Translations under genes and position numbers: made by a program
In this document: positions 1 to 20,083 of the stretch, one piece after another
How the letters are laid out: every line of letters begins with the position of its first letter
Position numbering within the stretch: position 1 is the first letter of the stretch
Notes under the pieces: generated by a model
Databases searched by the model: none
The model's input: the letters and a program-made list of their open reading frames with translations, nothing else
What the model was told of the DNA's origin: nothing
NCBI GenBank assembly: GCA_001275005.1
Contig: JWZX01001112.1
Span: forward strand, 1 to 20,083
Direction: 5' to 3'
Source of the DNA: Chrysochromulina tobinii
Taxonomy: Eukaryota > Haptophyta > Prymnesiales > Chrysochromulinaceae
Length of the DNA stretch: 20,083 nt

Positions 1-480
1 GGCGGCGGCGGCAGCGGCGGCGGCGGCGGCAGCAGACGATCCGGCGCCTCCGAGAGCCTCCCCAAAGTGCTCCGCAAGTACGAGGAGGGCAGCCGAGCCG
101 ACAGCGATGCGCGATCCAACGGAGACCCGAGATCCCATCACGATCAGGCGCAGCCGCATTTGTACCTGTACACGCGCCGCCGGCGCGGCCAAGTCCTCTT
201 GCTGCTCGTGCTGCTGCTCCGAGAGCGTGCGGGCAAGGCCATCGGGTATGACAGCGGCCCCGAGCGAGTCAGCGCCTCCGTTGTTGGTGGCGGCGGCAGG
301 TTGACTTTGTCTCGTGATAAGCGGCGGCGCCGCAGCGGTCATCGCGGCAAGCAGGTATTGGATCAAGGCGACAGGTGGAAGCATGCTCTCAAGCTGCCTC
401 AGCGTCTCCGCCTCACTCGGCACCCTAGCCATCAGGGACCCCTCGTGTGCCGGCACGACCGCTCCTGCGGACGAGCCCAG
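1..480 (-). other. C-terminal edge of the window: helical segment ending in poly-Ala
   Basis: After the discoidin-like domain come LRQLESMLPPVALIQYLLAA-type helices, a short Gln run (SEQQQQED) and a hydrophobic stretch with ALLVLAEHFGEALGG. The last 11 residues visible are all Ala (1-33, GGC/AGC triplets on the plus strand). The reading frame is still open at base 1, so the protein continues beyond the window. Confidence 0.7.
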
Positions 481-3400: not shown

Positions 3401-6400
3401 TCGTATCTGCAACTCGCGCAGTGATAAAAGAGCGGACACGTGCGGTGGAGATCCTCCCGGCGGCAGCTGTCGCAGACGACGGACGTCTTGTACGTGGGTG
3501 GCAGCAGCACGCGCCCCTCCATGGCATGCTTCTTGGCGCAGCACACCACCGGCAGCGGGCCGAGGGAGCCGGAGAGATCGCACGTGATCGAGCCGAGCTC
3601 GGACACCCGCAGCACCGCTCGGCTGAGCAAGGCTCCGTTAGAAAGCCCTGACCTGTCCCTTACCAGTTGCTCCCGCAGCGAAGACGAGGCCAGCACGGCA
3701 AGCGTGTGTCCTTCTTGACGGACCGCGTCGAGCCACTCAACCACGTCGAAGTCCGCTGCACCCGCCGCACTCGGCAAGAGGAAGGCGGCACGGCGCGCAC
3801 CATTGGTGGCGATGCCGTCGGTGCCCTCCCCGTAAGCGATCGGCTGAGCGTCCGCACCGACGGGCACGAGAGCGAGGGGTGCCCCCAACGGACGAAGGGC
3901 GGCCGTGGCCGTCTTGCCAGCGGCTGCGGCAGCTGGCACAGGCTCGAGTGCCCGCACCCTCTTTTCGCTGTTCGTCGCAGGCAGGGCCTCGAGGCTGAGG
4001 GTCGAGTAGTCGCGAGTGGTCTCACTCATCTGGCGCTTGCTGGCGTCCCAGCTGCCCAGAGGCACCGTAGTGCACACACCGGACTGTGAAAAGTTCCAGC
4101 CCGACTCTTCTGGGCCAGTGCCTGCCTGGCAAATCTTCCAGTACGAGCCGTCATAGTAGATGGCACCGGTAGTGTATGGCGGTGGGCCCTCACGCGTGTA
4201 GCATGGCCCTCCATTGCGCAGTTGGCCTCGGACGAGATTGTACGTACCCGAACAATTTACCCCACTGTCGCCCGAAACCACACGGATGCGCGCCGGGGGG
4301 CCAAGAGGCTCGGGTGGCGGCGGCGGCTCGGGCGGAGGCGCGGGCGGCGGCTCGGTCGGCGGCGGCTCGCACAGCAGCGAGTCGGAGGGTGGCTGTGGGA
4401 AGTGCTTGAGCGCACAAGACGCGCACGCGTCAAAGTCGCAGCCACGGCAGTAGTAGGAGTGGCCTGCCCTAAAGGAGCCGCGGCACACGTCGCACGTGTG
4501 CCCCCCCCGGTTGTTCCAAGTGAGGACGTGCTGATGCTCGGGCACTTTGACCTCAGGGGGCCGCCAGCATAGCTTGAGGACCATCAAGCCCTCACCCGAC
4601 CAATCAAACCAGCCGCCGCCGCCAAAGACCATGTCCTCTTCCGCGCTCGGCGGCGCGGGCGGTGGCGCGCCGTTGATCTCGAGCACATAGGCCGCGCCCC
4701 CGCTCGCGATCAAGCTCTCGAGGCAAGCTGAGTCGATGTAAGGGCTACCTGCCAACCCAAGTGCATGCAGGGCCGGCTGCCGCACCGCTACGACCTGCAC
4801 CACCATAGCCTGTGCCCCGTGCCTCGTGGCGGCTTGCTCTTGCGCCCATCGCAACTCGAGCCCGCACGGGCTCCGGGGCTCGTGAGCTGGCCGGCGCAGC
4901 ACGAGCAACGACTCGCTCGGGCCCAGCACGGCGCTTCGGTGGCGCGCGATCGTCGCGCAGGGCAGGACGCCGTCCTTTGCCTTTTCCCACTCGCCCAGCG
5001 GCGGTCGCCCCTCGGCGCACTTGATGCGGTAGTAGTCGCCGGTGTCACGATCGAGATTGTCCTTGTCGGCCAGATACCAGTACTGGTTGCCGCTCGGCAG
5101 CGTGTACCGGATCATCCAGATCTGACCCTTCTCGTGCACATACTTGGCCGTGCCGCCGTACTCGCCTTCGCGACTGTAGACGCCGTTGGCGGGCGTGAAG
5201 CCAGCGCCACTCACCACGTACGCGTCCTGCATGGAGGCGGCGTGGTCGCCCTCGCCAGCCGCCCCAAGCAGGCGCCGTGTCGAGCTGTCCATGGGCGGCG
5301 CCGCGCCCGCATCGAGCACTGAGAGTGTCAGAGGCATGGGTGCGGGTGCAAGGCGGCGCGTGAGCGCGGCCGACGCGCGCCATAGGTCGCTACGGCGCAG
5401 CCAAAGCCCATCCTCGGCGCACGGCACCGGCGGCAGCGGCGCGGCGCACACGCCCAGAACGGCGCGTAGCAGCGACGGCGCGGCCGCGACGCTTGTGACC
5501 GGCACGGCGCCCGCGCTGACGAGGCTCTCGAGCGCGAGCACTCCAAGCGTCACGAGCGTGAGCGACGCATGCGACGTGGGCGACGAGTCCGCAGAATCCG
5601 CAGAGTCCGCAGAGGGGAGAAGGCCCGAGCGTGGCAGATGCTCCTCGACAAGGGCAGCGATCGCGCGTAGCAGCCTCTCCGCATCGGGCAGCTCGGGGCG
5701 GGGTAGGGCGAGCTGCAACGCCGAGCGCCCCGCCGAGCCAAGGAGCACCTGGACCTCGTCCGTGAGCGTGGGCAGCAGCCGAGCCACCTCAGCCGTGGAC
5801 GCATCCGCCGTGTCGAGCAGCATGAGCGTCGTCGCAGGCGCCGCGCCCGCCTCCACGCCACCCCCGCTCGCGCCATCGGCATGGCTCAGCGCCGTACCGA
5901 GCGCACCACGGCGCAGCGCGTCCTCGCGGGCGCCGAGGGCATGCAGCGCGCCGCTCGCGAGGCAGATGGCGCGCGCGCTCGGCCGAGGCACACTCGCCTC
6001 CCGCAGCGCCGCCTCGCACGCGAGCAGCGCGCCGCTCGGCTCGACGCGCCCATCACGTCGCGGTGCGTCGCGGAGGAGCTGGCGTACAAGGATGATCGTC
6101 TCCAAGTGCCGCTCGACCGGCGAGCTGTCGGGTGCGACCTCAGCGTACAGCGGCTCACACTCGATCGGGCTCTCGAAGCAGTGCCCGAGGGTAGGAGGCT
6201 TGGTGCCGGAGGACGCGCCCCCGGCGGCGATCGCTCCTCCGACTGGGAATGTGAGCAGCGGTGGCATCCCCTCGAGCCAAGAGCCCGCCGTCAGCCGCCG
6301 TATCGCCACGAGCTTCACCTTGTAACGGCCATAGTAACGGCCGACGCAGAAGTGGAACGCGGCGGCGCGGCTCACGGCTCGCGGCAGCTGCACAGCGGTG

Positions 6401-9400
6401 CCGATGGCACGGGACTCGGCGCCGGGGGATTGCTTCTTGCCCGCTTGGATGGTCATCTTGGCCGTATCGAGGGTCAGGGTGAGCGTGTCGCCCGGGCGCC
6501 ACGAGCTTTCGGGCGGGCCGCACGTGTCGGAGCCCTCGAGCTTGAACGCGGTGGGGCCACCTGCGGCTTTCCACCCCCACGAGTTGGCGCCAGAGCCGGG
6601 GTAAACTGCGAGCTCGGACTGGACATCACTCGGGTTCCGCTGAGCGGGCGGTGTGCGCTTTGTGACCCACTGCACACCCACGTACGCACCATCGGGGTCG
6701 AACGAGTCGGACGGCATGACCTTGAACTCGGCCTGCCACGTGCCACTCTTGAGAGCATGCCCAACCTCGCAGAGTCGCATCCCATCGTTCCCGAAGGTGA
6801 CCACCGTGTTGCCCTCGCTCAAATCGCCGCCACACCGTTGGTGCCACTTGGTGCAGAACTTGACGTTCTTGAGCTCGTGACCTCCCGCCGCTGCCCCGTC
6901 GCCCACCGGCGCGAACGTCCACGCCGCGAGCGAAGCGCAGGCGGAGGAGCCTGGCACGCTCGGCTCCTCGCTAATCTCGGCCATTGAGGCGCTGGCGGGT
7001 CTACCGGCTGCCAGCGCCTGCGCCAGTAGACCTTGTGGAGATGGCAGGCACACAATGCCAGTGACCTTGTACTCCTCGTGGCGAACGTTGCGATTCTGTG
7101 CGCTGTCCCACGTGTCCCCAATTGCGCCAGCATCGATGGGAAGTAGATTACCCACGTGGGCGCGGCCTTCCATGAACACTGGCGTCGCTGTCAGACCTGG
7201 GATCTTGAACGCAGCCATCTTTGTGTGCCCATCCTCGTGCACCGCAAATACATACGTTTCTGGCTCACGAGGATGAAGGAGACCAGGAACATTCGGAATG
7301 GTTTTGCCGCTCATGAATGTGCCGCTCATGGTACCAGTCACCATCATGCCGCTCGCCGGCGCGGGCGTCTCCGCCATCTTGGGCAGAGCAGACGGGCGCA
7401 ACGTCACGTACACGAGCTGTGCGGCACATGGCAGCCCGATGCGCACCGATCGGCCGCCCTCTTCGAGCTCTACAGGCGCGCTCTGCATAGCCTTGATGGC
7501 CTTCGGCTCGACGCCTTCGCCGAGCCACTTTTGGATCTCGGCGGAGTCGGTGTGCGAGAGCGGCAGCAGCCACGCCGCCATGCCCGAGGTGCACCCCGCG
7601 ATTGCCCCCGTTAGAGGCATGCGGATCCCTTGCAGCAGTGGCTGCTGCTTCCCCGCCGCGCCGGCGGCGGCGGGCCCGGGGGTGGCGGGCGCGGGGGTGG
7701 CGGCGGTGGGCTTGGGCTCCTTGGCCGGTAGGCGGATGAGGAGCGCTCGGACGATCGAGCACTCGAGTACCCGCGGTGGCGCACCCCACACGGCGCGCCG
7801 GGCCGCCGCCGCCGCGTCGCCCTTGCTTGGTGCTGAGGTGTAGCCGGTTGGCGACGGGGTGGGCGGCGGTGGGGCGGCCGGCCAGATTGTGAATCCAATC
7901 TGCGCGAGGAGCTCCGAGGTGACGAGCTCAGGCAGCACACCGCCCGAGGCAGCGGCTGCGCTCGGCAGCAACCGACCGAGAAGTCGCTGGCTCAGGAGTG
8001 CCACGTCATCGTCGGGTGCGCCCCGCTTAGCTAGGGCCAGCAGGGTGGGCACAGCGGCCTCGGCAAACGGCGCCGGCGCAGGCTCGTTTGGCGCGGGCGG
8101 CAGCAGCAGCACGAGCAGCTGCAGCAGCCGCACGCGCAACTGCGCACTCACCCCTTCGTCCGACAGCTCATGCAGCAGCACACGCACCAACCAGAGCGGC
8201 GCCGTGACGGGCGCATCCGAGCCCTCCCCGGCGTCAGCGGCCGCGGGCGCACCGAGCGCGTGGACCACCTGAGAGAGCACCCAGTACGTAGTGAGGCGCG
8301 CGTCGTCCGGCGCGTGGGACGCGAGCCCGTGGATGTGCTCGAGCAGGCGCGAGCGCTCAATCCACGCCACGTCATCGCGTCCGTACGGGAGGCGCAGCCC
8401 CTGCAGCACGAGCCGCGCCTCCGCCGACCCTATCGAGGGAGTCGTGAGCACCGCCAGCAGTGCGGCGTACAGCTCATGCATCGCGAGTCGGAAGGATCGA
8501 GAGAGCTCATGGCCGCACCCTAGCACACTCGTCGAGCACAGCTGCAGCGTGCCAATGCTTCGTGCGAGCTCGCTGAGCACTGGGAGGCGAAGGGAGCGGT
8601 GGCACGTTCGGAGCGCCCGTGCGAGCGCCTCGAGAGCAGGCACCGCCGCTCCTACGGCGTCGCGCCGACGCGCCATCTCGGCACGCAGCGGTTTCAAGCC
8701 CGCCGGCAACAGCGACACCTCACGCACGTCCGGCTCCAAAAAGTCGAGCACTTCCGACGTGAGCTGGCCGTACTTGTGATTGTCGAGCAGCGCGCCAAGC
8801 ACGTCGCCGCGCGAGCCGAGGCTCGAGCGCGAGCCACCCTTACTGCCCGCTCGGCGCAGCGCGTTGCGCCGCTGCTCAAACGACATGGCGAGCTGCTTGG
8901 CGCGCGCGAGCTGTGCGGTGGCCGCCAGACTGCCGCCCTTTATCTGGAGTTTCAAGCGCGCGCGCTCCCAGCTCGTGCCGCGCGTGAGCGGCGGGGCCAT
9001 CGAGCCGCTCGACGTCCTCGCGAGGTCGAGTGCCGCGGTGCTGCCGCCGCTCAGCTCGTCACTGCTCATGGCGACGCCCATGACGACCTCGCCCGTAGAT
9101 GCCATCCGCTTGACCGGCAGCGGCGGCTCACTCCTCGTGCGCTTCGGCAGCAGCGATGTCATCTCCGGCGGACGCTCGTCCGCTTCGCCCTCGTCCCCCG
9201 TGCCTCCGCCCCCTCCTCGCGCCGGCACCAGCATCACCGCGACAGCGCTGTCGTCGATGCTCACGGAACCGTGGCGGCGCTGAGTCGCGGGCATCACCCC
9301 CTTGAGAAGAAAGAGAGCCCGCTCCAAGATGGGTGCCGCCACGCGCGCCTCCTCCGCCACGATGAACTTCATGTGGCGAGCCTCGACCACCAGATCGTCC

Positions 9401-12400
9401 AGGCCAACGTCGTCCCGGGCGTCGTCCGCGTCTGACACCGCGCTCTCGCCGCCGACGCTCACACGCTCGGCCACGCGCGCCGCTCGCTCGGCCTCCTCGC
9501 CGGCCGTGCTGTGAATGTTCACACCCTCGCCGCCCGTGCTCGACGCCGCCGCCGGCAGGTCAGCCTCGGAGGAGTCCTCGGCGGTTGCACCTCCACCCCT
9601 CCGGAGCGCGGCGCCAACGCGCCCCGCCACCCATCGGCGCACTTGACGCGCGGCCTGCCAGAGCACCACCAGCGATGTGGGCGGGCGCGCTGCATCGAGC
9701 GCCGCCGCCGCCGCCGCCGCCTCCGCCACGAGGTGGTGGTGGCGCAGCAGCACACACACGACGATGCGCTCGAGGCGCGCGCCCGCGCCTCCCTCGCCCG
9801 CCGAGCACTGCACATTCTTCGAGGCGTCGCGCTCAAACTTGGCGAGCATCGCCTCGTGCAGCCGCGCCGCGCCGCTCAGAGGCGCCGTACCGGGCACGCT
9901 CACGTGCGCGGCGAGGTGCTCTAAAAAGGCGGTCGCCTCGTTGACCATGTGCGCGGGCGCGGTCGCGGAGCGCTTGGGAACGAGCGGCACATCGGCGCCG
10001 CCGTCGGCGTTGGATCCGGTGCCGCTACCCGAGCCCGCAACGCCAGCACCAGTGCGCACCAGCCCCCCCCGCAGCAGCTGCCCTTGCAGCGACTCGACCA
10101 AGGGCCCCTCCTCCGGGCCAGCGCCCACGGCGCTCACGGCGGCGAGGCACACACGGGCGAGCACTTGGGCGGCGAGGGTCGCGAGCTTATGCAACTCGTG
10201 CATGCCCGCGGGAGAGGTCAGCCGCCCTTGAACCCACAGCACGGGCGCCACGACGAGAGGCAACTTGGCGCCGCCACCGCCCCCGCCGCCACCGCCGCTG
10301 GCGGCCTCGGTCTTGACGGACCGCCTGGCCTTCACCTTGCCCTTGCCAGCCTTCCCACTCTTGCTAGCCTCGGACGACGACGACGACGGGGTAGCGGCAA
10401 AGCCCGCGAACGGATTTGGCGCATCGATTGGAAGCACGCCATGCCCCAAGAGAGAGCCGCCGGCAGAGGCCGGCGCGGCCGACGGCGCGGCCGACGGCGT
10501 GGGCGGCATCGTACGCACCCACGTGAGACGCACGGCGGCAGCGCGCACGACGACGCGCCGTACCGGGCGTTCGACACGCACGTACGGCGCTCGCTCCGCC
10601 TCGGCCATCGCCGACCACTCGGCCTCACTCACCGACACATCGGGTGCGCCCGTCGTGCCCTGTGTTACCGCCGGCGCGAGCGAGGCGTAGCGCACGAGGG
10701 AGGCGGGCGCACCGACAGCCAGTACGTCGTCACACCAGAGTTCCCACAGCTCGTTCGCCCCCTCCTCGTCGCCGTCGAGTGCCGACAGCGCCGACAGCGG
10801 CACGCCGGGGCGGAGCACCTCAACACGCAGCGACGCACTCGCCACGAGATTCGCGTTCGGACCGCCGCCGGTGGGCAAAGGGCTGCCGCCCGCGGCGGGC
10901 GCGGCGGGCGCGGGCGTGGCAGCGCGGTAGCAGTAGGATGGAACGTGGCGGTTTGAGAACGCTTCGCAGAGCCGGCAGCACGATGGGCATGCCGGCCCGT
11001 TGTCCGGCCCGCAACGGCCATCGGAGCCCGGGATGGCTCTCGTCCCCTTGTGCTTTCCACAGTAGAAGGTCCCCTGACAGCCGATTGAAGTCCCAAAGGC
11101 GACGACGTCTCCCTCGTCGTTGACGAGACTCGCCTGGAAGCGTAAGCACGAGGCGCACGCAGGGCCGCCGGTGGGACCACATCGGCCGTCCGAGCCCGGG
11201 ATGGCGTCCGAGCCGAGGAAGCGGCCGCAGTAGAATTTCAGTCGGCCGTCGTGACGCGTGCCCACATACTCATCATTGCCGCCAAGGCCCACCTGCGCGC
11301 CCTCATCATTCACCGGAGCCGCAGGCGGTGCAGGCGGCGCGAGCGGTGCGGGCGGCGTGGGCTGCGCGGCGGCTGGGCGGCCAAATGTGATCGGGGCACT
11401 TCCAAAGGTGAAGGTCGGCGGAGATCCACCACCAGCAGGCGAGGCGGCGGCAGGGGCAGCAGCGGCACTTCCAAAGGTAAAGGCGGACAGCGGCGCTTGC
11501 GGCGGAGGGGCGGCAGCGGGCAGCGGCGGACCGGCTCTGCCAAATGAGAAGACACCAGGTGCCGGCGGAGATGCACCACCAAATGAGAAAGGGCTGCCGC
11601 CGCCAGTGCTGGGCGAGCCAAAGGGCGAGGCGGCGGCAGGGGCAGCAGCGGCACTTCCAAAGGTGAAGGCGGGCAGCGGCGCTTGCGGCGGAGGGCCAAA
11701 GCTAAAGCCGCCAGGGGCTGCTGACGGTGCGGCGGGGGCGAACACCAAAGGGGCGCCGCCAAAGGTGGGCGCTGCTGGAGCAGCGGCGGAGAAGGGGGCG
11801 GCTGCTGGCGCCGGCGCTCCGAAGCTGAACCTGCCGGCGGGTGCGGGCGTGGCGGTGGCGCCAATGGCAGAGGCGACGCCAAAGGGCGTGGCACTGAAGA
11901 TGGGTGCGGGCGCAGCGGTGCCGCCGGAACGCGGGCGCTGCGGCGCGGGGTTGGCGCCAGAGCTGAAGCTGCCGCCGACTGGTCGCGAGGGAGAACTGAA
12001 GGCCATCGCCGAAGCCCGAAGCTCGGGCGGTAACGCTCCGAGCGCCGTCGCGGGCGCGGGCGCGGGCGCCGTCGCCGGCGGCATCACGGCGTCCTTGAAA
12101 GCGCCCAGCGGAGTAGTTGAGCCCAGGACGGCGCTCGGCTCGGCGGAAGGTGCCTTGTACTCGGCCTCGATGACGAGTTCGGTGGCGCCTGGCCAGATGA
12201 CGATGCGAGTGGCGTGGGACCGCGACGGTGTGAAGTCCATTCGAACAGGCAGCTGCGAGGGGATCCCGGCGACTGGGCGGCGTAGCACCGGTGCGAAGAG
12301 CGCGTCGCAATGCTCGACGAGCGTCGTATTAAGCGTCGTGGTGAGCGCGTCCTCGTCACGAGTGCCGGGTAGCAGCGCCTTGCCCTTGCCCTTGGGCGTG

Positions 12401-15400
12401 GCGCCGTCCCGGGCGGCATGCGCATCTTCGATGGTGCCCGAGCGCTCGATGGCACTCAGCAGCTCCATCAACGCGCCCAAGAGCAACACACCAGCGCCAG
12501 CGCGCGAGGCGGCCGGGGCGGTGGCCGGGGCGGTGGCTGGGGCGCCCATGGAGACGCCGCCGCCATCCTTGGGGGAGGTGAACGCAGTGGAGCCAGTGCT
12601 CGGGACAACGCTAGTGCTCGGGGCGGACGGCCCAAACTGGCGGAGGAGGCAGAGGAGCAGCGATGGGAGCAGCGCGAGCACCGGGTCTGAGCGCAGAGGG
12701 GCGCTGAGAGGGAGCGTCGTGTTGAGCGAGGGCGCTGCGCTCGTGAGCGCCGTGTTGAGCATCGTGATCGGGGGCGATGAGGAAGCCGTCGTGGGGGCAT
12801 GGGCCCCGTCCGCCGACAGCTGCGGCCGCTTGGTGGCGGTGCGCGTCCCGCCACGCTGCTCGAGGCGGCGCGTGACGACGCTCACGACAGCGCCGAGATA
12901 GTGAGCGAGGCTCGCGCCGCTACCCGAAGATGCTTGGAGGATGGAGGCATGCTGCTCACGCAGGAGGGCCGTGCGCGAGGGCGACAGGATGCCACCCGCT
13001 GCCCCTTCGAGCAGCTCTACGATCGAGGCGCCACCGCTCGCAAGCAGACGCTGCATCACCGCCACGCGCGCCTGCAAGACAAGCGGCGCGAGGTTCGACG
13101 CGTCGCCCGGCGCCGCACAAGCGGTCCAAAAGTCCTCGAGGGCCTCGAGGAGTGCCGCTGAGTGTGGCAGCGTCACATCCACGGGAGTTGTCACGAGCAG
13201 CGCGCACAGCGAGCGCACCACAAGGCGCGGGGTGGCTGTGGTCGAGGGCTTGGCCGTTGGCTTGGGCGCGGCCAGCAGCTTGAAGGCGCAAATTTTCGAG
13301 TCGCAGCCACCACGCTGGTTGGTGATGATCTCGAGCCGGACGGACGTCGTCTCGGGCGGCAGCTCTTGCGCGCCGAGCAGCGTCACCCATTGGGGTATTT
13401 CGTGATGTGGCTCCTCGAGTGCCATGCTCTTGATCGTCTTCCATTCCTCCTCCGCCTCGCGTACCTTGAGCACGATCTCGTGCGGCGTGTACGAATCGTA
13501 CCAGACGTGGAGCACTGAGAACTCAACGAGGCGATCGCGCAGGCCCATGCCCACCCCTAAGCCGCCCAGCTCGATCCAATGCGGCCGCGTGCCCGAGCTC
13601 TCCCAATACTGGCCTTTGCGCGCTTGCAGCGACTCTGCATCGCCGCCCGCTGGCTCGAAGAGGCGCGAGAGCGCCGACGCACGCGACGATGCGTTCAGAC
13701 TCGTCGGGCGCACCTCTCGCGCTCCGTCGGCACTTTGGCTGTGCGCGCCCGCCGCCGCCGCGCCCGCCAGCTCGTCCGGCTCGGGCGCTGGTGCGCGGAT
13801 GGCGCCGGCCGAACGCGTAAGTAATGGGAGCACCTCGAGGGCGTAATAGGCTGTCGCCTCGGTGCGCGCGCCCCCCCGCTTCCTCGCAATGAGCCGTTGC
13901 ATCGCGAGCAACGCCGGCCAGTCGACGAGGGCGTTGTTGTGGGCGCTGCTGTCGGAGGTGCACAGGATCTGATGCAGACCGTTACGCATCTCGTCCGTGG
14001 CGAACCCTGGCGTACCCGTTTTAGCGAGGACCGCCGAGACCGCGTGCAGCAGCAGCGTTTTGAGCTCCGCGAGCAGCTGCGAGCGCGCGCGCGCCGCGTG
14101 CACGGGGCGCATGAGAGGCGAGTGCACTGAGACGAGAGCGTGGAAGGCGACGTCAGCGACGCCCGGGGCGGTGGGCTTAGGCGAGACCCCATCAGGCCCG
14201 GGCTCCCAAGTCACGTCGAGTGTGCCGTCGTGACCACTCACACACAGCTTCGCGTACGCACGAGCCCCGTGCCGGTCGGGCGCGAGGGCGAGCTTCGTCT
14301 CCGGCTTGAGGGAGAGGACGTCGCCCGTCCCTTGCACCAAGGCGAGCTCAGAGGGCTTCGCACTCATCGGGTTGCGTCGGAGCGTCAGTGTGCCCGTGCG
14401 GCACTCGGCGCCCAGGCACAGGCGCACCTCATCGGCCGAGGATGTGCGCACGCGCCAGCGCACCTTGGCATCGCCTGCGACGGGCGTACCGAAGGGGGCA
14501 CACAGCCGCTGCGTGCGCACGAGGCGCACCGCCGGAGCCTCGAGCACCATCCCCGCCTCGTCTTCGTGGCCGCCAAAGACGGCGCCCTCCGCCGCCCGCC
14601 CTCCGAGAATGTCGTTCAGCAGAGCGGCAAGTTCCTCATCGTCAGCCACCGCGCGCTTGATGTGTTCGGGCGTGATCGATGGTCTTTCCTCGCCGCGCTC
14701 AGAACGCGCCTCTTCTCGCGCCTGTCGTCGTTCCTCGCGCCGTTCCTCGCGTCGTTCCTCGCGTCGTTCCTCGCGCCGTTCTTCGCGCCGTTCTTCGCGC
14801 CGCGCCTCGCGCCGCTCCTCGCGCCGCGCCTCCCGCACATCCTCATCCTCATCCTCGTCTTGGTCCTCATCCTCGTCCTCATCCTCATCCTCGTCCTCAT
14901 CCTCGTCGTCGTCGTCGTCGTCGTCCTCGTCGTCGCCTTGGGATTCATTGAGGGCTTCCTTGCCCGCCAACTCGAGCACCTCGGCCATCAGGTACTCAAG
15001 AATGACCGCGAGCACGAGCGCTGCCTCCGGCTGCAGCGCAAACGCGGGTCCCGCGATCGCGGCCACCACACGCGGGTCACACACCACACAGTTGCGCGTA
15101 TTGGGACCATCGGGATGGAGCATGGCGCCAAGTGCCTCGCCCGCGCTCATCGCACGCCCGGAGTTCGTCAGGCCCCTATACCGGCGCACACCCTTCTCAA
15201 TCTCGGCGACGGCGTGGCGGAGCAGCTCGGGCCCTATCGTCCCCCATCTCTCAGCCAGCGCCTCACGCACAGCGCCGGCACTCAGCTCACGGCGCAGGCC
15301 GCTCGCGAGTAACGGCGCCCGTGACGGCGTCATCGTCGGCGGGGTAGGCGGTGTGGGGGCTGCGAGCAGCACCGTGGGTGGCAAACCCAAGGCCACAAAC

Positions 15401-18400
15401 GGCTGCTCGATGCTCACCTCGAGGGGCTCGAAGGCGGCCGCAGGCCTCGTGTGGCCGAGGCTGAGGAGGCGAGCGAGTACCTCGGTGATAGCTGCCCCGA
15501 GGAGCTCCAAGGCCTCGGGCTGCATCCCCATGTCAGGATGGACCTGGGAGAGCACGGAACGGCACGAGCCATCCCACACGCCTGGCACGTGCCTTGGTGC
15601 CGCCTTGACGACGACGGCCGCCTCCTTCGCCTCCTTCGCCTCCTCCTTTTCCTCCTTCTCCTCCACCTCCTCCTCGTCCACGTCGAGCCCGCCCACGAGC
15701 TCTAGCAGCCGGCTGAGCATGCTCAGGTGTGGGCCCACGAGCGTTTCCTCCTCCTCGGCCACGGCCGCCCCCTTCGCCTCCGCCTCCTCCACGTCCTCGC
15801 TGCCACTGGCCGCCGTGTCGAGGGCCGCCGTGTCGAGGGCGGTGAGGGAGCTAGGGGCACAGTGGTACGTGGCGCCATTCGCAACGTACTGGACGCGGAT
15901 CGTGCCGGCGTGCACCCCGGTGCTCACATGCTCTTGCACGATCGCCTCGCCGTAGCCGGCCACCAGGACCCGAGCCCCGAGCGCGAACATGGCAAGCAGC
16001 TTCGCGTGCTCGGCGCGCGCGCTCCGTGACACGTGGCATGTGTGGAGGACCTGCAGCAGTGGACACAGCACGAGGGTGACGCTCGGGTCCATATAGAGCG
16101 CTTGGGCGCCCGACACGCCGCCCGTCACGCCGCCCGACACGCCGCCCGACACGCCGCCCGACACGCGTGGTGTCGCGCTACCGGTACCAAAGGAGGAGCT
16201 TCGGCGCTGACTCTGTGGCTCGACGGCCCGCGTGGCGGGCGCCGCCGTGGGCGCCGTGGTTACGCGAGCTGTGAGACTCGGCGGGACGGTCGACGCATCC
16301 TCGAGCACAGCGCCCATCACAGCGCCCATGCGCTCGAGCACGGCGCGCAGGTACGGCGCCGTCGCGGGCACGGTGCGCAGGCTCTCGCCTTGGATCAGCG
16401 CGTGATGGACCGCCGCGAGCAGCACACAGATCGCACGCCGTCGCGGGGTCGGGGGGGCGGCGCCTACGGGCCCCGGTGGCGGCATCGAACTGCTCAAAAG
16501 CCGCTCGAGCCACCCGCCGCCGCCGCCGCCGCCGCTCAGGGCCTCGGCACTGAGCGTACTCACAAGAGAGGCGTCGGCGGCGAGGGCGAGGAAGGGGTCG
16601 GAGCCGTCCACGTCGGGCAAGGCGGGCGCGTCGAGGAGCGAGTGCAGCAGGCCACGCCTGAGGGCAGCCGTTGGGTAGAAGAGCCTCCAGTGCTGCACGA
16701 GCGTCCCGAGAGCGGCCGCCGCCTCGGAAACGGACGTGCCGCGCGCCGTGCCGAGCGCCGAGCCGCGCGCCGTTCCGAGCGCGAGCTCCTCGAGGGCAGC
16801 TCGGAGGGAGCCGAGGGGTCGGTGGGCGGCCTCGAGCGACGCGAGAGAAGGCACGTCGCTCGCGGGCTTCGGCGCGGCGCTTGCGGGCACGAGGGTGTTG
16901 GCGAGCGTCGTGGCGAGCACTTCGGGCCGACTGGGCGTCGCTGCTCCGCCCTCGGCGCCTCGCCCCTCCGCCCATGCCGCCTCGAGCGCCGCCCATGCCG
17001 CTCCGCCGTCTGCGCCGCCGCCATTGGCTTCCTCGACCACAGACGAGGTGCGTATCGGGTTGCACCAGAGCGACGCAGCGAGCGAGAGGGCGGCCGTCTC
17101 TCCCGCCTCGAGTGGAGGGATAAATGTCTCTTCGCCCTCGCCCCTTGCCTCACTCAGCACCGTGAGCGAGGCGCGCACGACGCTCAGGGCCGCACGTGCG
17201 GCCTCGCCGGCGGAGCCGCCGCTCCGCGGCGTACGAGGCTCCGCCCAAGCATCCGTCGGGGGCGCCACCCAGGTGGGCTGCCGTTGGGGCAGCACCACAT
17301 CGGCGTCGGCGTCAGCGTCGGCGTGGGTGGCCTCGAGGAGCGCGAGCGCAGCACCGAGCAAGCCGGCCGTTGGCTGCGGGCCGAGCGGCACACGCGGCCA
17401 GCGCACGCCCATGCCCGTGCCGCCGCCGCCCCGCCCGCAACTGGCTGCCATCGCACTCCAGCCCGCGCACCGCTCCGCCAGCACGGCGAGGAGTAGATCC
17501 GTGCCCTCGACCGCGCTCAGGACAGCGCTCCGCGGGGGCGGGTGCACGCTCGAGGGGGTGGGGATGGGCGTACCGGTAGGGGGTGCGTTGGCCTCGGGCG
17601 AGGCCACCTCGGGCACACCAGCAGCCGCCGGCGCTGCGGCGGTAGCGGCGGCCATCGCCACCGCTTGGAACGCGGCGGCGGCGGCCCGGCGGCGTACGGG
17701 GTCGTTGGCGGCGGCAATGCCGGCACGTGCCTCGGTGCTGAGATCACCGGAAAGGAGAGTGGAGGGCGGCAGGCACGGCTGCACCACGACCTCGCTAATC
17801 GGACTCTCGTCCCCGAGGGAGGGGCTGAGCTCCACAAGCCAGTGCTGGGAGCCGGCCGTGCCGGCCGCGCCAGTCGCAGCCGCATCGGCGGCGGCTCTCG
17901 TGGCGAGATGGCGCCACGCGTCACTCTCTCGAAGCGGCTTGGCAAACAGGGAGAGTGTGTGTCCACCGACGAGGAGCACGCCAAAGGAGGTGAAGGTCGA
18001 CGCGTCCACATCCATGAAGGTCAAGTCGAAGGTGGCACAGCGCGCGTCGCGATCGGCGTCGGAGAGAGGCGGCACCAGCGCGAGCGTCGTGTCGGGCGTG
18101 GGCGTCGTGTCGGGCGTGGGCGTCGTGTCGGGCGTGGGTGCAGGCGGCGGTGGCAGCGTGGTCGTGCCGATCCGGCACTCGAGGGCGCCGGAGGCCGACG
18201 CGGGGATGGAGAGGACGAGAAAGTGGGCGAGGTTGGGCGCGAGCGGCGCGCGGCTCCGAAAGGCAACGAGCGAGAGTGATCCACGTTCGAGACGATAGGC
18301 CTCGCCGCTCGGCGCATCCGCGGGCGGCAGCGACGGCACTGGCAGCAGGCCGCGCGGCCGCGCTCCGTCGCCGCCGGCGGCGACGACGTGCACGCTCGGC

Positions 18401-20083
18401 GGCGGCGCGCCAGACGGGAGCGCTGCCTCGAGCACCGGCACAAATAGTTGATGGCTAGTGCCGCTCGCTGCGCGACGATGCGCCGCGCCCTCGGCAGCGC
18501 CCGTCGCGGCGGGCGTGGCGGCGCTCGCGACGGCGCCCGCGATGGTGGGATGGTCGGCAGGTCTGCGGCGTGTGAGCGTCGCCGCCGCCGTCACGTCTTG
18601 AAAGGTGGCGACGAAGTAGAGAGGGCGGCACTGGAGGAGCGGGGCTGACGCGATGGGCACGTCGTCGGCGAGCAGATGGAGGGTCGATCGGTCGAGGTCG
18701 ACGAGCACGTCCACCTTGGTCACGGCCATCGGAAGCCCCTTGTCGCAGCAGGTGATGAGGGGTGACGAGCCCGTGTTGCAGCCGCCCGCGGCAGTGACCA
18801 TCGCGGACGCATTGTCGGTGCCAACCTCGTCGATGATGGCGCCACGCGCGCGCGAGAGCTGCGCCACCGCTTCTGCGGTGCACACGCCGAGGCGCTTCAC
18901 AAAGGCAGCGAGGGGGGAGGCCGTGCCACCAGAGGCGGTCGCGGGGGGCGGCGCTTTGCTGAGCTCGAAGAGGTGGCAGCCACGCGTGAGCGGCTCGAGC
19001 ACCACGAGCGCCTCGACACGCTTCGGGATGCTCGTGGTACCGCGAGCCGCGTGCCGGATGGTGACCGCCGCGCGCGACCATGCCGCCTTGGCCTTGGCCG
19101 GCTCCGCCTCGGTGGCCGTGCCCGTGCCGGTGCTGTCGGCCGCGGATGCACTCGGCAGTCGTGGCGTCGTGTCGGGCGGGACGGGGGCGATGCGCAGGTG
19201 GGCTGTGGCCCACGTACGCAGGGGGGTGGGGAGCCCGGCGAGCACCGGCGTCCCGTGGTGCATGCATCGCTCACTCACGGCTGGGCGGCTGCCGTCGGCG
19301 CAGAGGGCGAGGGCCAGGGGCGGCAGCGCTTCCAACGCATGCAGCTGGGCAGCGAGGGCGGCGGACAAGGGCGTGCTGAGCGGAAGGAGGCCCGCACGCG
19401 CGCTGGCGTGGGCAGCGGCCGCGGCGCGCAGGGCTGCCTCGGAGGAGCCAGTGCGCAGGGCCAGCCATGCGAGAGCCTCGAGCGCGGCTAGCCGCGCGCT
19501 CACTGGCAGGGCGGCCGCCGGTGTGGCGGTGACGATGGCGGCCAGGGCGCTAAGCGGCGCCTCCTCGAGCAAGGCGAGGGGGGCCCCCCACCCACCGGGG
19601 ATGCCGTCGGGCACTTCATCTGGTGCGCCGGCGTCGCTCAGGGCCGCCGTGCCCGGGAGCCCCCGGAGCCCTCTAGAGCTGCCCTCGTGATTGGCCGCGT
19701 CGGGCGTCAGAAGATCGAAAAGGCGGCCGCCAGATGCGAGCGCCGCGACGGCGCCGCCCAGGAACGTCTCCAGAAGCGGTGCGGGCAGCGGCAGCGGCGG
19801 CGTGGCGGGCGCGCCGCCGCTCGCACCAGCGGTGGGTGCAGCGGACGCAAAGACAGCACTGAGGAGCCGGAGGGCGAGGGCGAGGGCGGGCGGCTCCACG
19901 CGCACGTCCACATGGGGCGGCGGCGGCGTGGGCAGCCGGTAGTGCTCGGCGCATGCTTGGCATATGTCGTAGTTGGACTCGGCGTGGTAACGGATGCCAC
20001 GGTAGCTGTGGGCGAGGGGGTGGGGGGTGGGTGAGCGGCGGCGAGCGAGGCGGGCGAGGCGGGCGAGGCGGGCGAGGCGGGCG
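1..20083 (-). CDS. Giant multidomain scaffold protein, internal fragment of at least 6,694 codons (partial at both ends)
   Basis: I read every triplet of the window in this register and found no stop codon on the minus strand. The next longest open frames, on either strand, are only about 550 codons. Recognisable domains occur in the same frame from end to end, so this is one coding sequence and not an accident of GC content. Domains include histone H2B and H2A folds, two DOC domains, SPRY, ZZ/C1-like fingers, FG repeats, a PCMTD-like methyltransferase and a discoidin-like domain. The mix is closest to HERC2, CUL7 and MYCBP2 scaffolds, but no HECT, RING or RCC1 repeat is visible. Start, stop, promoter and terminator lie outside. 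A few short stop-free introns whose length is a multiple of three cannot be excluded; one candidate is listed. The whole-protein function is unknown; a nuclear or chromatin-linked ubiquitin-type scaffold is my best inference. Confidence 0.93.
481..813 (-). other. Discoidin-like (F5/8 type C-like) beta-sandwich (residues 6424-6534)
   Basis: Motifs: FKRYALIIKSVHSGGTVQLG then RVAFQDARGQLL (family pattern YRLVITxVxGGGxVQLxExxLYDxxG), ESYHNLQNDDRRKWC (NLxDGDxxTKW), RIEFVFEAHVAVAALLLTTA and NDEPQRDPACFALEG (TANDxPxRDPxSWxLEGS). The set is typical of galactose-binding-like domains attached to secreted and intracellular scaffold proteins. It probably binds protein or glycan; no catalytic residues are expected. 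Confidence 0.75.
860..1248 (-). other. Linker between DOC 2 and the discoidin-like domain
   Basis: An Ala/Leu-rich helical stretch (for example AALQAALVSLAADAPGAAKA and RLAAYALLLDFLRALP) is followed by a polar segment, MSSKHADEDKVTPLQEW. No domain is recognised. Confidence 0.5.
1249..1611 (-). other. APC10/DOC-like jelly-roll domain 2 (residues 6158-6278)
   Basis: The sequence KLFDKNGSTYWQSSSETKPH is followed by WVEMHG, an LVDFSVAVKGHDSYSIRNIKV strand pair, TSWETLVTTE, a WRKLL strand and the closing IRFESLDGHGINCKITGFRV. This repeats the DOC 1 plan (TYWQS, PHW, DSY, final GxNxKIxxF) about 11.7 kb away in the same protein. Its DSYSIRNI replaces the DSYTPHEI of copy 1, so the two have diverged. 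It probably serves protein or degron binding. Confidence 0.82.
1612..2376 (-). other. Unassigned region with a GYY motif before DOC domain 2 (residues about 5903-6157)
   Basis: A mixed alpha/beta stretch includes SRVVTSISLEDLGLGLPLAP and KVPWLVGRLIGFLG helices. Near 1753-1815 it has a compact motif, EWKGWVFLNGRRGLGYYR, which resembles the FKTGxxGLGYY motif of some nucleolar proteins; I do not assign a family from it. An Ala/Pro/Ser linker leads into DOC domain 2. Confidence 0.45.
2377..2511 (-). other. FGKY-type motif domain (residues 5858-5902)
   Basis: The sequence MGFGKYAELSFEQV, then HPDYLEWARKQ, fits the widespread small module (M/L)xFGKYKGxxxxEV, then DPDYLxWxxxQ. That module is found next to exonuclease, helicase and GRF-type zinc domains and in DUF3820-like proteins. 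A helix follows (GRLQRWVEYC). Its role is often nucleic-acid or protein binding, not catalysis. The KG of the FGKYKG core is AE here. Confidence 0.65.
2584..2625 (-). repeat. 21-bp tandem duplication encoding SSASTGG
   Basis: Two identical 21-base units (2584-2604 and 2605-2625) encode SSASTGG twice in a Ser/Thr/Gly linker after the methyltransferase domain. Confidence 0.95.
2680..3294 (-). other. Protein-L-isoaspartate methyltransferase-like domain, PCMTD type (residues 5597-5801)
   Basis: Motifs in order: AVEAAFCAVDRAHFLP (PCMT: AFxxVxRxxFxP), a KAYEREP segment, VYHLSAPSIY (PCMT ISAPHMH; PCMTD HLSAPCIY), SAM-binding motif I SFLNIGSGSGYFSAMV, GVEVDDRAVSSARAK (post-I acidic residue), FDRIYVGAAAS and LLKPNGLMLGPF. 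The SFLNIGSGSGY and LIGP steps are closer to vertebrate PCMTD1/2 than to PCMT1. PCMT1 repairs isoaspartate with S-adenosylmethionine; PCMTD proteins bind SAM but act as cullin-ligase adaptors. Which role applies here cannot be read from sequence alone. Confidence 0.85.
3382..3543 (-). other. ZZ/C1-like zinc finger 2 (residues 5514-5567)
   Basis: The segment has VVCCAKKHAM, a Pro/Tyr spacer, then VVCDSCRREDLHRTCPLF and YHCASCRYDLCPDCA. The last half is a textbook ZZ core: C-x2-C-x-YDLC-x2-C. The first CxxC (CDSC) sits at the right distance. It directly precedes the methyltransferase domain by about 45 residues, so it may present a substrate or anchor the enzyme. The ZZ family is known for binding histone H3 N-termini and SUMO. 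Confidence 0.85.
4045..4290 (-). other. Second small beta module, SGDSGVNCSGTY type (residues 5265-5346)
   Basis: The module starts RIRVVSGDSGVNCSGTYNL, includes NGGPCYTREGPPPYTTGAIY and YDGSYWKICQAG, and ends ESGWNFSQSGVCTTVPLGSW. Its VSG-x-G-x2-x-N/C-x-G-x-Y opening and central aromatic strands resemble the module at 4954-5220, with extra Cys that may form disulfides or bind metal. The family and function are unknown to me. Confidence 0.5.
4294..4368 (-). other. Proline-rich linker
   Basis: Residues repeat PPPxEPPP units with Glu, Thr and Ala spacers (EPPPTEPPPAPPPEPP). They form an extended, probably polyproline-II spacer between the C1/ZZ finger and the second beta module. SH3 or WW partners could bind it; none is shown by the sequence. 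Confidence 0.85.
4402..4536 (-). other. C1-like/ZZ zinc finger (residues 5183-5227)
   Basis: The sequence HQHVLTWNN is followed by TCDVCRGSF, a spacer, then YYCRGCDFDACASC and a final His. This is the DC1/ZZ arrangement H-x-H/L, CxxC, Y-x-C-x2-C-D-F-D-x-C-x2-C. All ligands expected for two zinc ions appear present, unlike in the N-terminal ZZ remnant. Such fingers bind protein termini or lipids depending on the family. It is preceded by GGGGWFDWSGEGLMVLKL and followed by a Pro-rich linker. Confidence 0.8.
4954..5220 (-). other. VSGAG-type beta module (residues 4955-5043)
   Basis: The module begins YVVSGAGFTPANGVYSREGE, continues through YGGTAKYVHEKG and IWMIRYTLPSGNQYWYLADK, and ends with YYRIKCAEGRPPLGEWEKA. 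Aromatic and Gly residues alternate as in a small beta-barrel or propeller blade. I have a general memory of VSGAGxxxxNGxY modules in large algal and oomycete proteins, often near kinase or ligase domains, but know no defined function. A related-looking module follows at 4045-4290. Confidence 0.55.
5221..6300 (-). other. Unassigned helical region (residues about 4595-4954)
   Basis: Ala/Leu/Arg-rich helices such as ERHLETIILVRQLLRDAP and AERLLRAIAALVEEHL suggest a solenoid. A 9-bp tandem repeat at 5587-5613 encodes Ser-Ala-Asp three times. No motif identifies a family. Confidence 0.5.
6301..6840 (-). other. SPRY/B30.2-like domain (residues 4415-4594)
   Basis: The order of motifs fits SPRY well: a strand with SGTWQAEFKV, then GAYVGVQWV, the core NSWGWKAAGG with a following KLEG, then WRPGDTLTLTLDTAKMTIQA (SPRY: F-x2-GDxIGVxLDxxxxxIxFxxNG), and a closing FHFCVGRYYGRYKVKLVAI. 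The length of about 180 residues is typical. SPRY domains are protein-binding modules in RING and HERC-type ligases and adaptors. It lies between a beta-rich region and a helical segment. Confidence 0.75.
6990..7500 (-). other. Unassigned beta-rich region before the SPRY domain (residues about 4194-4364)
   Basis: Strand-like segments include GLPCAAQLVYVTLRP, ETYVFAVHEDGHTKMAAFKI and EYKVTGIVCLP, with Gly/Thr/Met-rich turns (GMMVTGTMSGTFMSG). This is probably one or two beta-sandwich domains. I do not recognise the family. Confidence 0.4.
7520..10260 (-). other. Unassigned helical region with Ser-rich disordered linkers (residues about 3275-4188)
   Basis: Long amphipathic Ala/Leu/Arg helices dominate, for example LPVLSELARSIGTLQL, LRVRLLQLLVLLLPP and VLALLTTP-like turns. 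They resemble armadillo/HEAT-type solenoids of large ligases. Between about 8820 and 9600 are Ser/Thr/Arg-rich stretches (GSKGGSRSSLGSRGD, STGGEGVNIHST) that look disordered and phosphorylatable. A poly-Ala run lies near 9700-9725. No catalytic motif or zinc site is visible. Confidence 0.5.
10270..10362 (-). other. Basic NLS-like patch followed by a nine-residue poly-Gly run (residues 3241-3271)
   Basis: A Lys/Arg-rich stretch (KSGKAGKGKVKARRSVK) follows a run of Ser, and nine consecutive Gly come eight residues later (10270-10296). The spacing and composition fit a bipartite-like nuclear localisation signal in a flexible linker, which would agree with the FG tract and histone folds. Basic linkers are not specific, so localisation is inferred. 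Confidence 0.5.
10930..11280 (-). other. Tandem pair of Cys-rich modules with IPGSDGRCGP signature (residues 2935-3051)
   Basis: Two consecutive modules share the order FYCG(R/K), about eight residues, AIPGSDGRCGP, two residues, GPxCxSC. The first ends GGPACASC and the second NGPACPSC. Each has four regularly spaced Cys, enough for one zinc or two disulfides, and both are preceded by a VNDEG or GNDEY motif. A further Cys cluster (CCRLC) closes the second. I have a general memory of similar GSDGRCGPxxGPxC motifs in large protist proteins, but I know no established function. Confidence 0.7.
11380..11883 (-). other. Nucleoporin-like FG-repeat tract, 11 FG dipeptides (residues 2734-2901)
   Basis: In 168 residues there are 11 FG dipeptides of the FSFG, FTFG, SPFG, TPFG and TFGG types, spaced by Ala/Pro/Gly/Ser-rich sequence almost free of charge. 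That is the composition of FG nucleoporins, whose disordered tracts line the nuclear pore and bind karyopherins. FSFG-type cores occur four times. The tract sits between a helical region and Cys-rich modules. It may act in transport-receptor binding, pore association or condensate formation. Low-complexity sequence in a GC-rich genome could imitate this, but recurrent FSFG/FTFG cores argue against chance. Confidence 0.8.
11437..11694 (-). repeat. 72-bp direct duplication inside the FG tract
   Basis: Positions 11437-11508 and 11623-11694 are two 72-base copies differing at three bases by eye. Both encode PPPQAPL, then a variable Ser or Pro, then AFTFGSAAAAPAAASP. One of the differences is synonymous (Phe TTT/TTC). 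Near-identity at DNA level indicates a recent duplication that enlarged the FG tract. The copies are separated by 114 bases. Confidence 0.9.
11884..13269 (-). other. Unassigned helical region between DOC 1 and the FG repeats (residues about 2272-2733)
   Basis: Ala/Leu-rich helices (for example RVAVMQRLLASGGASIVELLEG and DPVLALLPSLLLCLLRQFG) are separated by Ser/Thr/Pro linkers. Near 12140-12240 a beta-like patch reads RMDFTPSRSHATRIVIWPG. A short GKGKGKA-like Lys/Gly stretch is near 12380-12400. I recognise no family; a solenoid followed by a disordered approach to the FG tract fits best. Confidence 0.5.
13270..13665 (-). other. APC10/DOC-like jelly-roll domain 1 (residues 2140-2271)
   Basis: The domain opens with RLFEP and the hallmark QYWESSGTRPHWIELGG, matching the DOC signature TYWQSDGxxPHxIxIxF. 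Next come a strand with WYDSYTPHEIVLKV (DOC: DESYTPSKIxVxxG), a W-V strand (PQWVTLLGA), and the final LEIITNQRGGCDSKICAFKLL, equivalent to the DOC segment IxxNHQNGRDxHIRxIxVY. APC10/DOC domains bind degrons or partner subunits in the anaphase-promoting complex and occur in HERC2, CUL7, CUL9 and MYCBP2. The length of about 130 residues is normal. Confidence 0.85.
13666..14583 (-). other. Unassigned beta-rich then helical region after the histone doublet (residues about 1834-2139)
   Basis: The first 120 residues after the H2A fold look like a beta-sandwich: alternating strands such as AKVRWRVRTSSADEVRLCLG, then GDVLSLKPETKLALA and a terminal DGTLDVTW. I do not recognise the family. The rest is helical (for example RSQLLAELKTLLLHAVSAVLA and WPALLAMQRLIARKR) and resembles a solenoid. 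It links the doublet to DOC domain 1. Confidence 0.5.
14584..15078 (-). other. Histone H2A-like fold with a charged insertion in loop 2 (residues 1669-1833)
   Basis: Helix 2 reads LVLAVILEYLMAEVLELAGK, against H2A YLAAVLEYLTAEILELAGN. After the insertion, loop 2 and helix 3 read SITPEHIKRAVADDEELAALL, against H2A [21 protein letters not shown]; the docking-like LNDILGGRAAEG follows. The H2A acidic-patch residues Glu56, Glu61, Glu64, Asp90, Glu91 and Glu92 are all conserved (residues 1696, 1701, 1704, 1815-1817). The DNA contacts Arg42 and Arg77 are Ala and Ser. Helix 1/loop 1 is about four residues shorter than in H2A and nearly free of basic residues. The fold is fused behind H2B in one chain, as in the doublet histones of Marseilleviridae, but here it sits within a huge scaffold. 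Confidence 0.9.
14686..14940 (-). repeat. 85-residue bipolar charged insertion in H2A loop 2: (Asp/Glu)n then (Arg-Arg-Glu-Glu)n
   Basis: Residues 1715-1799 interrupt the H2A fold exactly between helices 2 and 3. The first part is a run of 32 residues at 14839-14934, all Asp or Glu except one Gln, encoded by GAC/GAG/GAT triplets. The second part, about 14707-14835, repeats Arg-Arg-Glu-Glu in a 12-bp tandem pattern (GCGCCGTTCCTC-like on the plus strand) and should form a charged single helix. No GT dinucleotide lies between the end of helix 2 and the end of the acidic run, so a canonical GT-AG intron does not explain the insertion. GC-AG splicing is not excluded. Confidence 0.88.
15172..15576 (-). 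other. Histone H2B-like fold (residues 1503-1637)
   Basis: Helix 1 and loop 1 read SVLSQVHPDMGMQPEAL, matching the H2B signature VLKQVHPDTGISSKAM. Helix 2 follows (LELLGAAITEVLARLL). Helix 3 is AGAVREALAE, and the C-terminal helix GPELLRHAVAEIEKGVRRY matches the H2B sequence PGELAKHAVSEGTKAVTKY. Acidic-patch residues equivalent to H2B Glu105 and Glu113 are present (residues 1619 and 1627). The position of Lys120, the H2B ubiquitylation site, is Arg. About 44 extra residues separate helices 2 and 3 and may be an in-frame intron. No basic tail is present. The H2A fold follows about 31 residues later, giving a doublet in H2B-H2A order. This signature is much closer to H2B than to NF-YB or other histone-fold proteins. 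Confidence 0.88.
15286..15417 (-). other. Candidate in-frame intron (132 nt, phase 0) inside the H2B fold
   Basis: On the minus strand, codon GAG (15418-15420) is followed by GTGAGC, a consensus 5' splice donor (AG|GTGAGC). An AG at 15287-15286 would close a 132-nt, 44-codon intron at a codon boundary with no stop inside. Removing it leaves 41 residues between the His of HPD and the first residue of helix 3, against 40 in canonical H2B; unspliced, the spacing is 85. The polypyrimidine tract is weak, and other AGs exist nearby. The alternative is a genuine Pro/Thr-rich loop insertion. Confidence 0.45.
15604..15684 (-). other. Glu/Lys-rich charged segment before the H2B fold (residues 1467-1493)
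   Basis: The sequence begins with DVDEEEVEEKEEKEEAKEAKEAA and is a strongly acidic helix-former with Lys spacing. It sits where a free H2B would carry its basic N-terminal tail, so the tail chemistry is reversed. A second, weaker acidic patch (SEDVEEAEAK, AEEEE) lies at about 15740-15805. Acidic segments next to histone folds are common in histone chaperones, which makes self-masking or chaperoning plausible. Confidence 0.8.
15835..15987 (-). other. Small SH3/Tudor-like beta-barrel (residues 1366-1416)
   Basis: Residues GARVLVAGYGEAIVQEH, then AGTIRVQYVANGATYHC and PSSLTAL, make the classic pattern of a five-stranded SH3-like barrel: an opening strand, a turn, an x-G-x-(I/V)-x-V-x-Y-x2-G strand pair, and a closing S-S-L-x-x-L. 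Tudor, CPH (CUL7/HERC2) and MIB/HERC2 modules share this layout. I cannot say which family it belongs to, and the aromatic cage of methyl-lysine readers is not obvious. It lies about 90 residues before the histone folds. Confidence 0.45.
16108..16164 (-). repeat. 12-bp tandem repeat encoding Gly-Val-Ser-Gly
   Basis: About 4.7 copies of GCCGCCCGACAC (plus strand) encode GVSG units, one of which carries Thr instead of Ser. It forms a flexible Gly/Ser/Val linker just before the segment leading to the SH3-like barrel. Confidence 0.93.
18085..18138 (-). repeat. 18-bp tandem repeat, three copies, encoding PTPDTT
   Basis: Three identical 18-base units (18085-18102, 18103-18120, 18121-18138; CGTCGTGTCGGGCGTGGG on the plus strand) encode PTPDTT three times. 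Perfect identity at the DNA level points to recent slippage or unequal exchange. It lies in a Pro/Thr linker between two beta-rich segments. Confidence 0.95.
18568..18840 (-). other. Possible C-terminal half of a SPRY/B30.2 domain (residues about 415-505)
   Basis: The segment contains a strand with VDVLVDLDRSTLHLLADD, then RPLYFVATF. This order matches the SPRY pattern of a G-D-x-(V/I)-G-(V/C)-x-L-D-L-D strand, a strand with a short turn, then PLYPAVS. The first half of the fold is not recognisable, and Cys-rich sequence (CNTGSS, ITCCDKG) precedes it. SPRY domains mediate protein binding and occur in HERC1 and other large ligases. This is a weak call; an unrelated beta-sandwich is possible. 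Confidence 0.3.
19939..20022 (-). other. Degenerate ZZ-type zinc finger (residues 21-48)
   Basis: The segment reads GIRYHAESNYDICQACAEHY, which follows the ZZ pattern G-x-RY-x-C-x2-C-x-DYDLC-x2-C. The YDICQAC core is clear, with Cys at residues 41 and 44. The upstream CxxC pair expected about 15-20 residues earlier is absent, and the RYxC cysteine is Ala. Only one zinc-ligand pair therefore remains. ZZ domains bind N-terminal histone H3 tails or SUMO in several families (p300, ZZZ3, HERC2). Whether this copy still binds zinc is doubtful. Confidence 0.6.
20041..20083 (-). repeat. 9-bp tandem repeat encoding Arg-Leu-Ala at the right edge
   Basis: The forward strand repeats a GGCGAGGCG-type unit about four times and runs off the edge. 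In the coding frame it gives Ala-Arg-Leu repeats (residues 1-14). The total length is unknown because the window ends inside it. It may be a low-complexity linker before the ZZ-like finger. Confidence 0.85.

Follow-up and report, generated by a model that had tools for sequence, protein, structure and literature searches.

A histone H2B-H2A pair in a giant open reading frame of Chrysochromulina tobinii and its haptophyte relatives

Introduction

What task could a pair of histone folds have inside a giant protein? The question is raised by contig JWZX01001112.1 of the haptophyte Chrysochromulina tobinii (C399 in our numbering), whose 20,083 nucleotides were analysed as a whole and are called the window here. 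A preliminary description, made from the letters of this DNA, had recognised, within the chain of a giant multidomain protein, a fold resembling H2B and, after it, one resembling H2A. It expected the pair to fold intramolecularly as an H2A-H2B dimer and proposed profile searches and a search for relatives as checks. The accessible text of a 2022 review (PMC9145170) states that fused doublets are not confirmed among eukaryotic histones; the putative eukaryotic doublets examined by its authors looked like mis-predicted splicing. Eukaryotic double histone folds are listed in the accessible text of a 2026 review (PMC13088155) as SOS, ABTB2, SPT3 and the animal HSIH-DHF proteins, mainly from animals; the others are SPT3 of fungi and protists and an SOS homologue of Capsaspora.

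Results and discussion

On its minus strand, the window reads as one uninterrupted frame of 6694 codons.

1..20082, minus strand: giant open frame, both ends open, 0 stops against about 124 expected

The expected number of stops was derived from base composition; the other two minus frames contain 111 and 119. The guanine-cytosine (GC) content by codon position is 0.72, 0.58 and 0.80 in the giant frame. A frame free of stops, the stops in the other frames and the codon-position GC together show that the giant frame is coding. The protein is incomplete: it extends beyond the contig and has more than 6694 residues. The contig belongs to a genome of 53.15 Mb in 2253 contigs, which also holds canonical H3, H2A and H2B genes. 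Its GC content is 0.70 versus 0.63-0.65 in three other contigs with the module described below; all fetched loci span 0.57-0.73.

All motifs quoted in the preliminary description were located in this one minus-strand frame: VLSQVHPDMG starts at position 15555, RHAVAEIEKGVRRY at 15219 and LEYLMAEVLELAG at 15000, while DDEELAALL ends at 14617. By sequence comparison, residues 1501-1828 (window 14599-15582, minus strand) were confirmed as an H2B fold and, after it, an H2A fold, with these parts:

15448..15582, minus strand: H2B-like alpha1-L1-alpha2, residues 1501-1545, with SQVHPD (PDB H2B, paralogue; helix bounds from the model)
15286..15447, minus strand: Pro-rich insert at the H2B L2 loop, about residues 1546-1599, with EVSIEQP and VALGLPP (conserved in C904 and public relatives)
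15166..15285, minus strand: H2B-like alpha3 and alphaC, residues 1600-1639, with E105, H109 and E113 (human numbering)
15079..15165, minus strand: linker between the halves, residues 1640-1668; ubiquitin or WW in this place in relatives
14947..15078, minus strand: H2A-like alpha1-L1-alpha2, residues 1669-1712, with acidic-patch E56, E61 and E64 (PDB H2A)
14686..14946, minus strand: insert at the H2A L2 loop, residues 1713-1799, an acidic run, then a predicted Glu/Arg helix (model, repeats)
14599..14685, minus strand: H2A-like alpha3 and end, residues 1800-1828, with acidic-patch D90, E91 and E92 (PDB H2A)

Searches of the PDB with phmmer identified both halves. For the H2B half (residues 1490-1655), the best 60 of 176 matches were all H2B or H2B-H2A doublets. 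The top E value of 7.8e-7 belongs to a tandem construct with two H2B copies, both of which count towards it; the next matches were a single-chain H2B-H2A (5.8e-4) and a viral doublet (6.6e-4). The best 60 of 238 matches for the H2A half (residues 1666-1850) were all H2A, with a top E value of 4.1e-6. Alpha2 and alpha3 were aligned as separate stretches, with an insert of about 87 residues between them. The profile search proposed as a check likewise led to histones. A module profile built from six sequences, the window and five public relatives, matched at the top mainly engineered single-chain H2B-H2A proteins (best E 2.4e-8), and most of these alignments ran from the H2B C-terminal helix through the junction into H2A alpha2. 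The Melbournevirus doublet ranked behind the chimeras (E 1.8e-5). The Pfam histone family PF00125 gave no match on the segment up to E 10, nor on the window in the genome scan, apparently because inserts at both L2 loop sites split the folds. Two histone folds are present in one polypeptide, as an H2B-H2A double histone fold is defined. Chance resemblance was rejected on the PDB matches of both halves and the profile, and because a paralogue on contig C904 of the same genome keeps both halves in the same order. A separate gene for the histone segment was rejected as far as the DNA shows, because the frame continues without a stop in both directions from it. Both halves sit in one uninterrupted frame in the window and in C904, and these copies thus escape the problem of mis-predicted splicing.

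The H2B insert of about 54 residues is conserved to the same degree as the folds, with identity to C904 at 25 of 34 residues, compared with 50-79 % in the helix blocks. The H2A insert differs in C904. It is built of 6- and 12-nucleotide tandem repeats (window 14729-14935) and was modelled as an acidic run followed by a single long Glu/Arg helix. Tandem arrays of such units frequently vary in length, and the exact length of the H2A insert is probably of little importance. Two structure models of low confidence (predicted local distance difference test, pLDDT, 48) gave their best structural alignments to H2A-H2B dimers, so that the intramolecular dimer of the preliminary description is a predicted one.

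The segment appears to be one copy of a haptophyte module family, H2B-X-H2A, found in different proteins and defined by an H2B half with the VSIEQP/LGLPP insert, a variable linker X and an H2A half. The search for relatives was successful in public data (P0002-P0008) as well as in the genome itself. The definition applies to the window, C904 and P0002-P0006. The paralogue C904 (locus L027, 2-4348, minus strand) is a frame of 1449 residues with ubiquitin between the halves (Pfam 1.6e-27) and, behind the module, a 2OG-Fe(II) oxygenase domain (Pfam 1.4e-6); its N-terminal stretch is cold-shock-like by eye, and the relative P0006 has a sub-threshold Pfam match there (0.055). In the search of the same genome, C904 was 61 % identical to the window module in the H2B part and 51 % and 79 % in the two H2A pieces. 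P0002 (1745 residues, 76 member sequences) shares 96 % identity with C904. In P0003-P0005 the linker contains a WW domain (6e-11 in P0003), and H2A alpha3 is not recognisable. P0006 has a short linker, after which the sequence changes as if frame-shifted. P0007, from a EukProt set and with Chrysochromulina in its protein name, is a shorter gene model that lacks the H2B end and the linker; it is identical to C904 at 86 % of 204 aligned positions and at 95 % of 86. P0008 carries ubiquitin and ends ahead of H2A.

Two further paralogues lack the VSIEQP insert. C1665 (L037, 3143-7144, plus strand) combines H2B, ubiquitin (2e-25), H2A and ankyrin repeats (1.9e-12) in one open frame and, by eye, has a Skp1/BTB-like stretch. 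In C1648 (L052, 5158-8292, minus strand), H2B and H2A frames join in-frame across a candidate intron of 110 bases (GTGCGT...TTGCAG). This fusion is near-canonical, with 49 % identity to the genome's own histones (75 of 154), and suggests that the module originated by fusion in the nuclear genome. The frame immediately downstream, on the same strand, has an H3-like fold (Pfam Histone 9.2e-10), preceded, as judged by eye, by an H4-like fold and followed by a SAM-like tail; the C1648 region may represent either a histone quadruplet of a eukaryote or a pair of adjacent fusion genes. Four loci of the genome, L009-L012 (C1892, C1317, C2234 and C2113), encode proteins that resemble one another, each in a single frame, with one histone-like fold and long tails; they are apparently a small family of paralogues. 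The weak matches on C231 and C2211 were discarded; their frames are proline-rich and acid-rich, respectively, and show no histone fold by eye.

The public matches were few. The 361-residue module as query retrieved six matches at E of at most 10 among 7999 proteins scored, a piece of 2000 residues retrieved one (P0002) among 7992, and no protein in the length class of the giant reached an E value of 0.01 or less among 817 scored. Neither in prokaryote genome contigs nor in four scans of viral contigs, for which the patterns were few and narrow, was a relative confirmed. The window itself is not virus-encoded, as it is a contig of the genome with the canonical histones.

Which residues were retained was assessed at canonical positions with the genome's own H2A and H2B as reference. 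The window is 34 % identical to them (51 of 149). The acidic patch, which we take to consist of H2A E56, E61, E64, D90, E91 and E92 and H2B E105 and E113, is identical at all eight positions, and H2B H109 is also kept. For the retention of the patch, the hypergeometric probability is 1.3e-4 when the whole fold is considered and 0.0036 when the comparison is confined to the same helices, where 35 of 67 positions are identical. Among the other canonical Asp/Glu positions, three of six are still acidic. Canonical Lys/Arg positions remained basic in seven cases out of 22; H2A R29 is kept, H2A R32, R42 and R77 are lost, and H2B K120 is replaced by arginine (lysine in C904 and P0003). The patch counts in relatives are eight of eight in C904 and P0002, seven of eight in C1648, and seven of eight acidic in C1665, six of them identical. 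P0003 has all five alignable residues, the remaining three having gone with alpha3, and P0006 has lost the alpha2 motif. When the window is compared with C904, synonymous change (0.35) is larger than nonsynonymous change (0.19), with a Fisher P of 2.3e-4 on rounded counts. Compared with nucleosomal H2A and H2B, the pair possesses the acidic patch and lacks the Pfam match, the basic DNA-contact residues and the short L2 loops.

Judged from the residues kept and lost, docking is the most likely function. We favour, with moderate confidence, an H2B/H2A-derived double histone fold that acts as a protein-docking pseudo-dimer and not as a DNA-wrapping histone. The two halves would pair within the chain like an H2A-H2B dimer, as predicted by the models. 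The L2 loops are part of the DNA-binding surface in the nucleosome; given the inserts in place of both and the loss of most basic positions, the module presumably does not wrap DNA. Retention of the complete acidic patch alongside this loss makes the docking of histone readers more plausible. The intact patch, perhaps together with the conserved Pro-rich loop, would form the docking face. Candidate partners may be sought among the readers of H2A-H2B or the acidic patch, such as arginine-anchor proteins, histone chaperones and importins, and docking would tether them to the giant chain that also bears the PCMTD-like and DOC-like domains. A wider reading is tentative and rather doubtful: haptophytes may have made the H2B-H2A fusion a general docking cassette, a DNA-free acidic face placed in unrelated proteins, some with a built-in ubiquitin behind the H2B C-terminal helix that echoes H2B ubiquitylation. 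The window copy would then call acidic-patch readers to the giant PCMTD/DOC protein.

As an internal regulator similar to that of SOS, the pair might be a stable fold packed onto other domains of its own chain, and the patch would then have no outside partner. This is unlikely, since the recurrence of the module beside unrelated domains fits an autonomous module better, and the identity of the patch, as measured against canonical histones, exceeds the overall level. Could the segment be a relic, a drifting histone-derived insertion that a loop-tolerant giant protein carries without a function of its own? The repeat-built, variable H2A insert and the incomplete H2A half in P0003-P0006 would agree with drift. 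The excess of synonymous over nonsynonymous change relative to C904, the complete patch and the frame without stops argue against it, and we consider a relic quite improbable. A true nucleosomal doublet, replacing the H2A-H2B dimer in chromatin and anchoring the giant to DNA, draws on the H2A/H2B-like sequence and predicted fold; set against these are the few basic positions kept, with H2A R32, R42 and R77 missing, the long inserts at both L2 sites and the unmatched PF00125. It is the least likely of the alternatives and hardly credible.

A viral source concerns the origin and is compatible with a docking function. The module would then descend from an H2B-H2A doublet of a giant virus instead of the alga's own histones. 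The order of the halves is the same, the Melbournevirus doublet is among the profile matches, and the 34 % identity to canonical histones falls within the 22-48 % stated for viral doublets in the accessible text of PMC9145170. The four viral-contig scans, narrow as their patterns were, yielded no confirmed relative, and the C1648 copy, which resembles the histones of the genome itself more closely and is interrupted by a candidate intron, suggests a nuclear fusion. A viral origin is very improbable in our view.

The preliminary description knew of no giant ligase-like scaffold with such a pair. This needs qualification: histone pairs in multidomain proteins have precedents in the SOS histone domain and ABTB2, as described in the available text of PMC13088155. 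A double histone fold within a multidomain protein is thus of a known kind. The SOS histone domain (PDB 1q9c, 3ksy), to which the models align, likewise has two folds in one chain of a multidomain non-histone protein. SOS contains RasGEF, DH and PH domains; none of these was found in the window among Pfam families up to E 1 over the visible 6694 residues of the protein, which is cut at both ends. In the accessible part of PMC13088155, SOS is credited with limited sequence similarity to histones, whereas the window pair is recognisable as H2B-H2A by sequence. ABTB2, compared by its description (ankyrin, BTB, double histone fold) and listed for animals in the same available text, also has a histone pair in a scaffold-type protein. 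Its ankyrin repeats are shared by C1665, which carries ubiquitin between the halves; unlike ABTB2, the window protein showed neither ankyrin nor BTB in the same Pfam scan of its visible residues up to E 1. The HSIH-DHF proteins of animals have an H2B-like and then an H2A-like fold in one chain. They are single-domain proteins with at least 60 % identity to histones according to the accessible text of PMC13088155, in contrast to the multidomain window protein with 34 %.

The doublets of Marseilleviridae and Melbournevirus (PDB 7n8n, 7lv8) have the same order in one chain and were matched in sequence and structure. They form nucleosome-like particles in virions. Unlike them, the window pair is embedded in a protein of more than 6694 residues, has long L2 inserts and few basic positions.

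A haptophyte H2B-X-H2A family with exchangeable linkers was not encountered in the available texts of PMC9145170, PMC13088155 and PMC12459048, the last on algal H2A variants. The words 'haptophyte', 'ubiquitin' and 'acidic patch' are absent from the accessible text of PMC13088155, and haptophyte, fusion and doublet from that of PMC12459048. Such a family would broaden the known range of eukaryotic double histone folds, and the near-canonical C1648 copy bears directly on whether histone doublets exist in eukaryotes. Should the acidic patch indeed serve for docking, the modules would offer single-chain baits of natural origin for its readers, and those with ubiquitin would naturally mimic ubiquitylated H2B.

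Other domains of the giant protein

Outside the histone pair, the following features were recognised:

13255..13617, minus strand: DOC/APC10-like domain, residues 2156-2276 (Pfam ANAPC10 1.3e-5; PDB APC10 0.0014)
11380..11883, minus strand: FG-rich stretch, residues 2734-2901 (168 residues), with 11 of the 22 FG dipeptides of the protein
4411..4539, minus strand: C1/ZZ-like zinc module, residues 5182-5224 (Pfam C1_2 2e-6)
2689..3270, minus strand: PCMT domain, PCMTD1-like, residues 5605-5798 (Pfam PCMT 1.5e-26; PDB PCMTD1 3.6e-20)
1393..1629, minus strand: weak second discoidin-like stretch, residues 6152-6230 (Pfam F5_F8_type_C 0.0013, below its cut-off)

The domain inventory of the preliminary description thus holds in large part. 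Its PCMTD-like domain is strongly matched, the DOC domain is supported by both databases, and the FG repeats are concentrated in the stretch listed above. For the proposed ZZ domain, a zinc-module-like part is present and is named C1_2 by Pfam. The SPRY domain is not supported, as none was detected in Pfam up to E 1 or in a PDB search of the stretch presumed to be SPRY. Of the term 'ligase-like', the DOC domain is what remains; the Pfam scan of the visible residues up to E 1 listed no catalytic domain of a ubiquitin ligase. The best PDB match of the methyltransferase part, PCMTD1, is a chain of 358 residues and corresponds to one domain of the giant; to our knowledge PCMTD1 has no histone folds. 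The stretch behind the histone module, including the DOC domain, has a weak match (1.2e-5) in a frame of 3694 codons on C2248 (L056, 82357-82776, minus strand).

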